From assembly GCF_900605005.1 (NCBI RefSeq), contig NZ_LR027558.1, positions 1,992,682 through 2,044,699 on the forward strand: a DNA stretch of 52,018 nt, read 5' to 3'. The DNA comes from Acidipropionibacterium timonense (GTDB lineage: Bacteria > Actinomycetota > Actinomycetes > Propionibacteriales > Propionibacteriaceae). The notes below the pieces were generated by a model that did not search any database, was not told the origin of the DNA, and saw only the letters and a program-made list of their open reading frames with translations. Positions 28,034-40,501 of the stretch are shown in pieces. Made by a program: the position numbers and the translations under genes. Within the stretch, counting starts at the first letter, position 1. Every line of letters starts with the position of its first letter.

Positions 28034-28816
28034 GTGAGCCAGCCCCCACGCCCCACACCGGACCACCGAGACCGTCGCACCGTCGTCGCCACGGTCTCGG
28101 CCCTGGCCGTCCTGCTCGTCGTCGGCATCGTCATGGTCTGGGTCCTCGGACGAGGACGCCTCACGACCGCCCAACCCCATTTCCCGGCGACCCCTTCGGC
28201 CGCGGCGAGCTTGGCGACGCCCTCGTCCTCCAGCCCGACCCCCAGCCCTGCGAAGGCCTCGTCGACCTCCGGTGCCGGCACCTCGGGGAACGGCGCCTCC
28301 GACGGCTCGGGATCCGGGGACTCCGGTTCGACCGCCTCCTGTGCGACGACCGGTGGAGCCCTGACTCCCTCGAGCATCCGCATCCCGTCGATCGGGGTCC
28401 ATGCCTCCGTCACCCCGGTGGGGCGCGGGTCCGACGGGGCACCCAAGGCTCCCCCGCTGAGCGACAACGAGAACTTCACCTGGTACCGCTCGAGCGCCGC
28501 CCCGGGCTCGGGCCAGGGTCTGTCCCTGCTCATGACGCACACCTACCATGCCGGCGGGGCGACGGGGAATGCCATCCATGCCGGGCTGCGCCCGGGCGCC
28601 CTCATCCGGGTCTCGGACGGCTCGCGCACCCTCTGCTACCGGGTGAGCGGCACCCGCAAGATCTGGGTCTCCTCCTACTCCAGCGCCGACGAGAACTTCA
28701 TCTACAGCAGCTCGGGGGCTCCCAGGATCGGGATCCTCATCTGCTGGGACTGGAACCCGCGCACCCGCGAGTGGGACTCCCGCGAGGTCTACACCGCCAC
28801 GGCGACGTACCACTGA
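28034..28816 (+). CDS. Divergent sortase (class F-like), membrane anchored
   Basis: A 260-residue protein. One N-terminal membrane helix (about 16-38) leads to a low-complexity Ser/Thr/Pro/Gly spacer (about 50-110) and a sortase-type beta-barrel domain starting near SSIRIPSIGVHASVTPVG. The likely catalytic residues are His169 (LLMTHTYHAGG) and Cys237 (GILICWDWNP), with an Arg in RTREWDSR (Arg243, 245 or 250). The usual TLxTC motif is here ILIC, so it is divergent, closest in size and layout to actinobacterial class F enzymes. Sortases cut LPxTG-like signals and join proteins to the wall. Two proteins in this window end in LPxTG without the normal tail, which makes the link worth testing. Confidence 0.75.
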   Translation: MSQPPRPTPDHRDRRTVVATVSALAVLLVVGIVMVWVLGRGRLTTAQPHFPATPSAAASLATPSSSSPTPSPAKASSTSGAGTSGNGASDGSGSGDSGSTASCATTGGALTPSSIRIPSIGVHASVTPVGRGSDGAPKAPPLSDNENFTWYRSSAAPGSGQGLSLLMTHTYHAGGATGNAIHAGLRPGALIRVSDGSRTLCYRVSGTRKIWVSSYSSADENFIYSSSGAPRIGILICWDWNPRTREWDSREVYTATATYH

Positions 28817-28854
28817 GCCGAACCACCCCCACCTCACCGGCCGTCGAGGTTCGA

Positions 28855-28860
28855 TAGGGT
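28855..28860 (+). promoter_or_regulatory. -10 box TAGGGT of a leaderless transcript (glnS)
   Basis: TAGGGT ends seven bases before the glnS ATG, the same spacing as at the sortase gene. No ribosome-binding site lies between. It lies 38 bases after the sortase stop, so glnS has its own start of transcription. Confidence 0.55.
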
Positions 28861-28867
28861 TCGCCCC

Positions 28868-30550
28868 ATGGCAGAGCTGACCGGGTCGGATTTCATTCAT
28901 GACGTCGTCCGTGAGGACGTCGAGGCGGGAACCTACGGCGGTCGTGTCCAGACCCGCTTCCCACCCGAGCCCAACGGCTACCTGCACATCGGCCACGCCA
29001 AGGCCATCGTCACCGACTTCGGCGTCGCGGAGGACTTCGACGGGGTGTGCAACCTGCGCCTCGACGACACGAACCCGGGCACCGAGGAGCCCGAGTTCGT
29101 CCGGTCGATCATCGACGACATCGCCTGGCTCGGCTACACCCCCGGTCGCGTCGTGCACGCCTCCGACTACTTCGACCAGCTCTACGCCTGGGCCCGGTAC
29201 CTCATCGAACAGGGCAAGGCCTACGTCGACGACCAGGACGGCGAGACGATCTCCGCCCAGCGCGGAGGCTACGGCCGGCCCGGCGTCGAGAGCCCCTTCC
29301 GCGACCGCCCGGCCGCCGAGTCCCTCGACCTGCTCGAGCGGATGCGCGCCGGCGAGTTCCCGGACGGGTCGCGCTGCCTGCGTGCCCGGATCGACATGCA
29401 GAGCGAGAACATGTGGCTGCGCGACCCGGTCATGTACCGCATCCGTCATCTCAGCCACCACGCCACCGGTGACCACTGGTGCATCTACCCCACCTACGAC
29501 TGGGCCCACGGACAGTCCGACGCCATCGAAGGGGTCACCCACTCCCTGTGCTCGCTGGAGTTCAACAGCCACCGTCCGCTGTACGAGTGGTTCCTCGACC
29601 AACTCCCGCTGGAGGGCGCCGCCCCCAAGCAACGTGAGTTCGCCCGCCTCGAACTCACCCACACCATCACCTCGAAGCGCCGACTCAAGAAGCTCGTCGA
29701 CGACGGCGTCGTCGAGGGGTGGGACGACCCGCGCATGCCCACCCTGCGCGGAATGCGGCGCCGCGGCTACCCGGCCAGCGCCATCCGCGAGTTCTGCACC
29801 GCCGTCGGCACGACGAAGAACACCTCGACCAAGGCCATCGAGGAGTTCGAGTCCTTCGTCCGCCGCGACCTCAACGCCACCGCCCAGCGGCGGATGGCCG
29901 TGCTCCACCCGCTCCGGCTCGTCCTCGACGGCTGGCCCACCGACGACGAGGGGCAACCCGTCGTCGAGCACTTCGAGCTCACCAACAATCCCGAGAACGA
30001 GGCCGACGGCACCCGGAAGGTCCCGTTCAGCGGCACCCTGTGGATCGAGGCCGACGATTTCCGTGAGGTCCCGCCGCCCAAGTACTTCCGACTGTCCCCG
30101 GGCCGTGAGGTGAGACTGCGCGGGGCCTACCTCGTCACCGCCACCGACGTCGTCAAGGACGACGAGGGGAGGGTCGTCGAGGTCCACGCCAGTTACGACC
30201 CGGAATCCCGCGGCGGCAACGCTCCGGACGGCCGCAAGGTGAAGTCGACTATGCACTGGGTGAGCGCCGGGACCGCGGCCGAGGCGACAGTCGTGCTGTA
30301 CCAGCGTCTCTTCACCGCCGAGATCCCCGGTCAGCGCACCGGCGAGGCCCTCGACGACCTCAATCCGCACTCCCGCGAGGTGCTGTCGGGTTGTCGGGTC
30401 GAGCCCGCGCTCACCGACGCCGCCCCGGGGGAGGTGGTCCAGTTCGAGCGCCTGGGGTACTTCGCCGCCGACCCGACGACGCCGATGCTCTTCCACCAGA
30501 CGGTGGGGTTGCGTGACGAGTGGGCCCAGCTCCAGAAGCGCAAGGGCTGA
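28868..30550 (+). CDS. glnS: Glutaminyl-tRNA synthetase
   Basis: A 560-residue class I synthetase that charges tRNA-Gln directly. The HIGH motif is in RFPPEPNGYLHIGHAKA, the KMSKS variant is ITSKRRLKKL, and the two-part C-terminal beta-barrel anticodon domain is complete. The motif CIYPTYDWAHGQSDAIEG is typical for GlnRS rather than GluRS. Most actinobacteria lack this enzyme and use Glu-tRNA-Gln amidation, so the gene was probably gained by an ancestor; its base use does not differ visibly from neighbours. Confidence 0.95.
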   Translation: MAELTGSDFIHDVVREDVEAGTYGGRVQTRFPPEPNGYLHIGHAKAIVTDFGVAEDFDGVCNLRLDDTNPGTEEPEFVRSIIDDIAWLGYTPGRVVHASDYFDQLYAWARYLIEQGKAYVDDQDGETISAQRGGYGRPGVESPFRDRPAAESLDLLERMRAGEFPDGSRCLRARIDMQSENMWLRDPVMYRIRHLSHHATGDHWCIYPTYDWAHGQSDAIEGVTHSLCSLEFNSHRPLYEWFLDQLPLEGAAPKQREFARLELTHTITSKRRLKKLVDDGVVEGWDDPRMPTLRGMRRRGYPASAIREFCTAVGTTKNTSTKAIEEFESFVRRDLNATAQRRMAVLHPLRLVLDGWPTDDEGQPVVEHFELTNNPENEADGTRKVPFSGTLWIEADDFREVPPPKYFRLSPGREVRLRGAYLVTATDVVKDDEGRVVEVHASYDPESRGGNAPDGRKVKSTMHWVSAGTAAEATVVLYQRLFTAEIPGQRTGEALDDLNPHSREVLSGCRVEPALTDAAPGEVVQFERLGYFAADPTTPMLFHQTVGLRDEWAQLQKRKG

Positions 30551-39646: not shown

Positions 39647-39856
39647 CGGCTGGTATCTCTTTCCGTCATGTGTGGGTAAGAATCCCTGGCTGCGCACCCA
39701 CTCGCCCGGCGCCGGGATCACCGCTGTCCCTCGCTCTGGGTGTCATGGGTACCGTGCGAACTCCGCACGGACGGACCGGACTCGCAGCAACTCGAGTGGT
39801 CGTGACGCCATGCCAAGGCACGCACAAGTGTCCGGTCGAACCGGACACGCGTTAAC
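39647..39856 (-). promoter_or_regulatory. Leader of the str operon
   Basis: About 200 transcribed bases lie between the predicted start of transcription (about 39850) and rpsL. No gene is seen. The stretch has no strong single hairpin that I can defend, though it is long enough for regulation. Confidence 0.4.
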
Positions 39857-39885
39857 AGGGTATCTCCCGGGTTTCAGGGGGTCAA
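39857..39885 (-). promoter_or_regulatory. Promoter of the rpsL-rpsG-fusA(-tuf) operon
   Basis: On the minus strand TTGACC (39885-39880) and TACCCT (39862-39857) have the ideal 17-base spacer. The word GAGTTTGACC occurs again at 39939-39948, upstream, without a matching -10, so part of the promoter may be duplicated. Confidence 0.7.
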
Positions 39886-39979
39886 ACTCAGCGACGCTGC
39901 GAGGAGGCGCACCGGGGGGCGCCACGAAACCCCATGGAGGTCAAACTCCACAGATGAAAAGCGCTGCGTCCGCAGCTCC

Positions 39980-40501
39980 TCAGGCACCCGTTCGAGGAAG
40001 GGCCACCGGGCGAGACACAGGAGCACCCACGCCGCCCGCAGCCAGGAAGCTGCCATGGCCCTTGTCGTTGACCTGTCCACTGATCGTTCCGTTGACGCGA
40101 AGGCTGCCCATGGCATGCATGGAGGGGAAGACGATCGGCGGAATGCTCACCGTCCCACCCTCAATCTTCGGCAGGACGATGGGACGTCCACTGACGTCGG
40201 GAAGGGCGATCGTCCCGCCCTTGACGGTCGGCAGGATGATGGGGCCAGCGCTGACGTTCGGCAGGTAAACGGTGCCGCCACGAATCTCCGGAGGCACGAT
40301 GCCGCGATGGTGAGGCGGCAGGCTGACGCCGACACTCACATGCACCGATGCACGATGAGTCGGGCGGGCATCCGCAGTGGCCCGGGATGTCGGAACGGGA
40401 ACGGGAGCAACCTGGTGCGCACTTGCCCCCGGAGCCGTCCCTACGAAAACGGCCAGTCCCAAGCATGCTGCAACCATCCCCGTCAGAACTGTTCGCTTCA
40501 T
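39980..40501 (-). CDS. Secreted protein with ten-residue repeats, ending LPRTGA
   Basis: A 173-residue exported protein. Residues 1 to about 30 form a Sec signal (MKRTVLTGMVAACLGLAVF, cut near ASA-HQ). A short Pro/Arg/His-rich part follows. The middle holds about five copies of a ten-residue unit of the form xGG/GP-x-[I/V]-x-LP-x-[V/I] (GGTVYLPNVS, AGPIILPTVK, GGTIALPDVS, GRPIVLPKIE, GGTVSIPPIV), which suggests a regular beta structure. The last residues are VALPRTGA-stop: a sortase-like LPxTG motif with nothing after it but one Ala. I recognise no family. The ATG has GGGGA upstream. It lies between rpoC and rpsL and points the same way. Confidence 0.75.
   Translation of the reverse strand: MKRTVLTGMVAACLGLAVFVGTAPGASAHQVAPVPVPTSRATADARPTHRASVHVSVGVSLPPHHRGIVPPEIRGGTVYLPNVSAGPIILPTVKGGTIALPDVSGRPIVLPKIEGGTVSIPPIVFPSMHAMGSLRVNGTISGQVNDKGHGSFLAAGGVGAPVSRPVALPRTGA

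Follow-up and report, generated by a model that had tools for sequence, protein, structure and literature searches.

Proteins ending in LPxTG plus one residue recur in Cutibacterium and may carry a minimal sorting signal for SrtF-clade sortases

In textbook protein sorting, a hydrophobic segment and a charged tail are needed to hold the substrate for the sortase. A class F housekeeping sortase, SrtF, was reportedly described for Cutibacterium (Propionibacterium) acnes by Di Girolamo in 2019. In vitro, the C. acnes enzyme couples LPQTGE peptides with oligo-Gly (PMC7451113), and 19 substrates have been predicted for it (PMC8200545), among them DsA1, an LPXTG protein whose lack of a membrane span and charged tail has already been remarked upon and which is regarded as a surface-associated as well as a secreted protein (PMC5527093). 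In oral streptococci, AbpA ends in LPKTS-AVK and is anchored by SrtB, with partial release (PMC4974636). Trypsin shaving of P. acnes yielded the 5'-nucleotidase/2',3'-cyclic phosphodiesterase PPA2097, compared here by annotation and not by its ending, and the same surfome held few LPXTG proteins (PMC3848858). An earlier note on the DNA analyzed here had proposed a possible undescribed anchoring system, too strong a term given that both the short tail of AbpA (PMC4974636) and the absence of a tail from DsA1 (PMC5527093) have been published; a genus-wide rule of bare LPxTG-X endings was not found in a partial survey of open-licence PMC papers.

The window, i.e., the whole 52,018-nucleotide stretch that was analyzed, belongs to a genome of 2.8 million bases and contains a sortase gene between gltX and glnS, as well as two genes for tail-less LPxTG proteins (Table 1). 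The earlier note had reported tail-less LPHTGV and LPRTGA ends, one near the sortase gene and the other about 11 kb from it, and both its letters and its coordinates were correct. Neither protein has the hydrophobic segment and charged tail of the classical LPXTG signal; one residue follows the motif, and then the stop codon. Relatives of the small protein with a like ending are encoded in five other genomes of the genus. The closeness of the sortase and nucleotidase genes had been read as a functional pairing, which we rejected. In each of the seven genus genomes examined (the window's own and six others), the nucleotidase gene comes next after glnS, whereas the window sortase type was seen in two of nine, by a tree that lacks the split G003 gene; gltX and glnS of G007 lie next to each other with no sortase between them. 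Because the glnS-nucleotidase adjacency holds without the sortase, closeness in the window says nothing on function.

Table 1. Features of the window, with positions counted from its first nucleotide
Feature	Position	Strand	Remarks
Second SrtF-clade sortase (named SrtF2)	28034..28816	+	N-terminal membrane helix, low-confidence linker, sortase barrel
SrtF2 predicted N-terminal helix, residues 14-42	28073..28159	+	Codons; from the structure model
SrtF2 His169 codon	28538..28540	+	Invariant in 18/18 clade members; proposed catalytic His
SrtF2 Cys237 codon	28742..28744	+	Invariant in 18/18; lines up with TC-DDYN of S. aureus SrtA; proposed catalytic Cys
SrtF2 Arg250 codon	28781..28783	+	Invariant in 18/18; aligns with S. 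aureus SrtA; proposed catalytic Arg
glnS	28868..30550	+	Neighbour, outside the system; accounts for sortase-nucleotidase closeness
Secreted 2',3'-cyclic-nucleotide phosphodiesterase/nucleotidase	30667..32643	+	Proline-rich linker, tail-less LPHTGV end
LPHTGV of nucleotidase	32623..32640	+	Final six codons, then TGA
Small secreted protein, tail-less LPRTGA end	39980..40501	-	Between rpsL and rpoC
LPRTGA of small secreted protein	39983..40000	-	Final six codons, then TGA

Recurrence of the ending was scored with a DNA pattern for L-P-x-T-G-X-TGA, and the same pattern read backwards served as the control; outside the window, the pattern was confined to TGA among the stops and to leucine codons other than TTR. 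The window's own genome has 16 such sites versus 3 for the control. Open frames of at least 100 aa are terminated by 15 of the 16, the linkers before the motif are typically rich in proline, threonine, serine, or lysine, and the motif x is H, K, or R at 15 sites. For one of the fifteen frames, L006, an assembly artefact is possible. Ten frames were submitted to Pfam, which assigned no family to three; histidine phosphatase, endonuclease/phosphatase, trypsin, hexosaminidase with F5/8C, beta-galactosidase, a laminin-G-like domain, and RCC1 repeats were among the matches. Given this diversity of families, unrelated proteins share the ending.

Across nine genomes of the genus, the pattern occurred at 102 sites (4 to 18 per genome) versus 15 for the control, and by the same count most other genera were near background. 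Open frames of at least 100 aa are closed by 88 of these sites, and BLAST sorted the 88 into 39 families, 16 of which (65 proteins) are shared by at least two species. The frames most often close with V (45) or A (19). Among the 79 frames with a 5' end within the retrieved DNA, a signal-peptide-like start was present in 57 and absent from 22. A crude automatic codon-phase test was passed by 69 of the 102 sites; several failures are relatives of passes, e.g., the window's small protein, and a few of the 88 frames are probably not real genes. The bare-tag ending is confirmed as real, and it is more widespread than had been reported at the outset. One such protein, L119 of G003, has 432 aa, QAEA at 28, DAVINDAK at 58-65, PT repeats from 327, and an LPSTGF end. 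In length, QAEA, DAVINDAK, and PT repeats it matches DsA1 (PA25957) of C. acnes, for which LPXTG has been placed at 411 (PMC5527093), compared with a start at 427 in L119. This match led us to treat G003 as C. acnes or something very close to it, and the genus as Cutibacterium.

The family comparisons cannot test the ending, since the search pattern itself fixes it at one residue; only a count of spacings, made without prior assumption of a one-residue ending, does so. This count used a pattern that let LPxTG and TGA stand 1 to 28 bases apart, took the nearest TGA, and drew on four of the six genus genomes searched (G007 and G000 were left out). Of 113 sites, 38 had one residue after LPxTG, 5 had zero, 0 had two, and 3 had three, and the mean over the 27 other spacings was 2.8 sites, giving a binomial tail of 1e-26 with composition ignored. 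According to PMC9126251, the sortase motif is LPX1TGX2, where a Gly with a free carboxylate is no substrate and sortases require a residue or an amide after it. One-residue spacing fits that rule of sortase chemistry, LPxTG-X being the shortest form accepted in vitro.

Normal tails occur in the same genome, where the PF00746 matches include three LPxTG proteins (L020, L022, and L023) with a hydrophobic segment and an Arg/Lys end, and L028, a class F-like sortase, adjoins a protein with another canonical hydrophobic, Arg-rich tail. Normal-tail proteins as the only substrates had been named as an outcome that would overturn the proposal; this genome has both kinds. Of the eight genus-mates, G001, G003, and G007 yielded no PF00746 match at E<=0.1, and the other five have one to three each; PF00746 is a weak model, and normal tails may therefore be undercounted. 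The three normal-tail proteins would also suit a history in which the bare endings are relics, their ancestors having lost full tails and the proteins now being merely secreted, and the view of DsA1 as surface-associated and secreted (PMC5527093) points the same way. Relics, however, would not halt at one residue, where 38 of the 113 sites fall, with none at two. In addition, the linkers of related proteins vary in sequence and length while the ending, fixed by the search pattern, stays constant, and third codon positions within the motif vary among the genus sites. We consider relics unlikely.

A tail that is present but reached via frameshift or stop readthrough is extremely improbable. No hydrophobic tail was found in any downstream frame of the two window genes, and within 45 codons past the stop of 86 genus sites (frames of at least 100 aa), hydrophobic stretches occurred at 2, 3, and 3 sites in the three frames, versus 3, 3, and 1 in the antisense control. 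Only the median hydropathy of frame +1 leaned toward a hidden tail, being slightly higher at 0.64 versus 0.11 in the control.

Sortases of the genome comprise the window enzyme, its paralogue L029, the class F-like L028, which keeps a normal LVTCAG motif, and the class E-like L027, which has neither Cys nor His in the expected motifs. The structure model of the window enzyme has an N-terminal helix, ~60 low-confidence residues, and a sortase barrel, and in an alignment of 18 clade members His169, Cys237, Arg250, and two further cysteines are invariant. Its proposed triad was assigned by reference to SrtA residue numbers. The predicted barrel fold and the conserved, putatively catalytic H169, C237, and R250 place the enzyme in the sortase superfamily. 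The earlier note had described a divergent sortase with an altered ILIC motif. Model cut-offs bear out the divergence: for the class F sortase family NCBIfam NF033748, the better of two families listed, the window enzyme scored 53.3 bits versus a cut-off of 166, and L029, at 68.2 bits, was also below it. The triad residues, however, are kept, and ILIC as the mark of an altered enzyme was rejected on the 18-member alignment.

In that alignment, the window enzyme is 36% identical to L029, the SrtF gene product encoded elsewhere in the genome (690 kb). An SrtF-clade profile gave L029 318 bits and the window enzyme, whose own row is in the profile, 243 bits, and profile and tree both put the latter in the SrtF clade. 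In the tree, which omits the split srtF gene of G003, the window enzyme pairs with a G002 enzyme (100/100) apart from L029, and L029 pairs with the G011 enzyme (96/96) and not with the six other genus genes. The flanking gene of L029 has matches beside a sortase in seven other genus genomes and in G011, not in the G002 stretch. By place, L029 is the counterpart of the genus srtF genes. The window enzyme is not an orthologue of the housekeeping SrtF of C. acnes, given its separate branch, the higher score of L029, and its gltX-glnS location. L029 is the likelier main enzyme, and the window enzyme a second member of the clade.

The clade profile scored at least 200 bits in eight of the nine genus genomes; in the ninth, G003, srtF is split over two frames into pieces of 161 and 157 bits, and tail-less genes persist. 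In G002, the window-type enzyme is the sole member of the clade, and 18 sites are still present. Elsewhere in the family, the clade was found in 9 of 24 genomes, the next best score being 117 bits. In line with the co-occurrence that the earlier note had offered as a check, tail-less proteins were accepted by reading in five of these nine clade-bearing genomes (one each in G011, G027, and G032, two in G021, and six in G026) and in none of the 15 clade-less ones, where one of five G031 sites was unread (Fisher 0.003, a value overstated by relatedness of the genomes). A stricter count, in which G027 was dropped and G016 scored as positive, gave a Fisher value of 0.047, overstated for the same reason; the G027 protein has an N-terminal helix and no clear signal peptide, and two G016 sites pass the automatic codon test with no signal peptide seen. 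No tail-less protein was accepted in the clade-bearing genomes G017 (no site), G018 (71% complete, two sites), G020 (one site), and G023 (four of five sites read).

It is improbable that the bare ends are served by another sortase, whether L028, a class C pilus sortase, or L027. The intact LVTCAG motif of L028 and a further sortase of another type in G002 (L095) would favor such service. However, L028 lies beside a canonical-tail protein, L027 is without the expected Cys and His, and G003, G004, G006, G007, and G008 each gave one class F search match, of the SrtF type, and all have tail-less proteins, in a search that can miss sortases of other classes. Very unlikely, too, is a role of the bare ends as a recognition tag for a non-sortase protein, against which stand the match of motif and minimal length to sortase chemistry and the co-occurrence of the SrtF clade.

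Among the remaining genomes of the order, 21 had sites; a single site was read in each, and none passed. A class sample of 393 genomes included two genus members with 16 and 13 sites, and visual inspection of the counts showed at most 10 in any other genome (G340, 8.8 million bases). For the class outliers G144, G095, and G255, reading covered 3 of 8, 3 of 4, and 4 of 4 sites and gave no accepted tail-less secreted protein. A contig scan that used two sortases as queries turned up a single relative, Enemella dayhoffiae, with five sites; one (L316) passes the codon test, with no in-frame signal peptide found, and another (L315) lies in a short frame whose final residues duplicate those of a G021 protein.

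We propose, with a probability of roughly 0.7, that in Cutibacterium and some other Propionibacteriaceae LPxTG-X followed by a stop is by itself a full, minimal sorting signal and that SrtF-clade sortases act on it. A signal peptide would export the protein, with the bare motif borne on a flexible linker. A sortase of the SrtF clade, tethered to the membrane (SrtF, or the window type SrtF2 of two genus genomes), would capture the free end, cut between Thr and Gly, release the dipeptide Gly-X, and join the Thr to a cell-wall amine. Sortase acceptors in this genus are probably wall amines. Covalent anchoring of the tail-less proteins to the wall by sortase is likely; for cutting in vivo, the acting enzyme of the two, and the acceptor, we infer the steps just given. 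Recurrence across the genus, spacing at one residue, and co-occurrence are all in keeping with the suggestion of a sortase that works on free LPxTG-X ends and needs no retention in the membrane, and AbpA shows by analogy that sorting without a membrane segment can work (PMC4974636). The shaving of PPA2097 from P. acnes is in favor of the proposal; against it stand the small number of LPXTG proteins in that surfome (PMC3848858), the split srtF of G003, the four clade-bearing genomes with no accepted tail-less protein, and the 22 frames with no signal-peptide-like start. As the substrate would not be held in the membrane, capture would compete with escape, and the proteins are therefore expected both on the surface and in the medium.

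If a genus as common as Cutibacterium anchors proteins via bare LPxTG-X, nature can do without the retention step. The occurrence of DsA1 both on the surface and in secreted form would then be explained, predictors that demand a tail (e.g., the LocateP criteria, PMC2375117) would miss such proteins, and the minimal tag of protein engineers would gain a natural counterpart. More speculatively, the whole genus, C. acnes included, may have largely dropped membrane retention, with diffusible minimal tags as the main route and anchoring after export, even on neighbouring cells; we regard this extension as possible yet doubtful. If true, it would make surface enzymes and adhesins shareable within the skin community.

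With the classical LPXTG signal, the present proteins have in common the signal peptide, the flexible linker, and LPxTG, but they are without both its hydrophobic segment and its charged tail. The missing tail of DsA1 was remarked upon for that one protein (PMC5527093), not as a genus rule. C. acnes SrtF belongs to the same clade as the window enzyme, but the latter is on another branch. AbpA-type gene order, a substrate gene and then a dedicated sortase gene, is not seen here, the sites being scattered over the genome. The AbpA/SrtB pair resembles the present proteins in a motif near the C-terminus, a short tail, and no membrane segment, and consists of a single protein, with three residues past the motif, and its own class B sortase encoded next to it (PMC4974636). 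In contrast, the system proposed here combines many scattered proteins, a single residue past the motif, and the class F-like SrtF clade.

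Within one of the frames ending in LPRTGV (leucine-proline-arginine-threonine-glycine plus a single residue before the stop), an adapter-like stretch was found in L006, a locus of the genome containing the window, and an N follows it. This stretch resembles a transposon-library adapter; the exact adapter end had no match in any locus searched. This LPRTGV site may be an assembly artefact.

The relative of the window 2',3'-cyclic-nucleotide phosphodiesterase/nucleotidase in the genus genome G007 (L124) was matched in several short pieces and looks decayed, yet an LPRTGV end is present. 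In G003, another genus genome, the assembly carries srtF, from the sortase clade co-occurring with such tail-less proteins, in two pieces whose frames differ (L096), a split that may be genuine or may stem from a sequencing error. The LPHTGN-ending protein of the family genome G027 (L257) begins with a hydrophobic helix instead of a clear signal peptide, and the window encodes a small protein with a twin-arginine-like signal (SRRTVATGLAWSVPAVVAASTLPAFA).

Features and their coordinates
Feature	Locus	Position	Strand	Own genome
Adapter-like stretch	L006	1459-1482		about 404490
Small protein, twin-arginine-like signal	window	25827-26396	+	
Class E-like sortase frame	L027	3085-3876		214444
Class F-like sortase	L028	3409-4095		
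Adjoining long open frame	L028	4250-7501		

The genome containing the window also encodes a class E-like sortase frame and a class F-like sortase. The class E-like frame has TLTTS and AGR at the positions expected to hold Cys and His, and its product is probably catalytically dead. The long open frame adjoining the class F-like sortase ends in a canonical hydrophobic, Arg-rich tail, and the two form a conventional pair within this genome.
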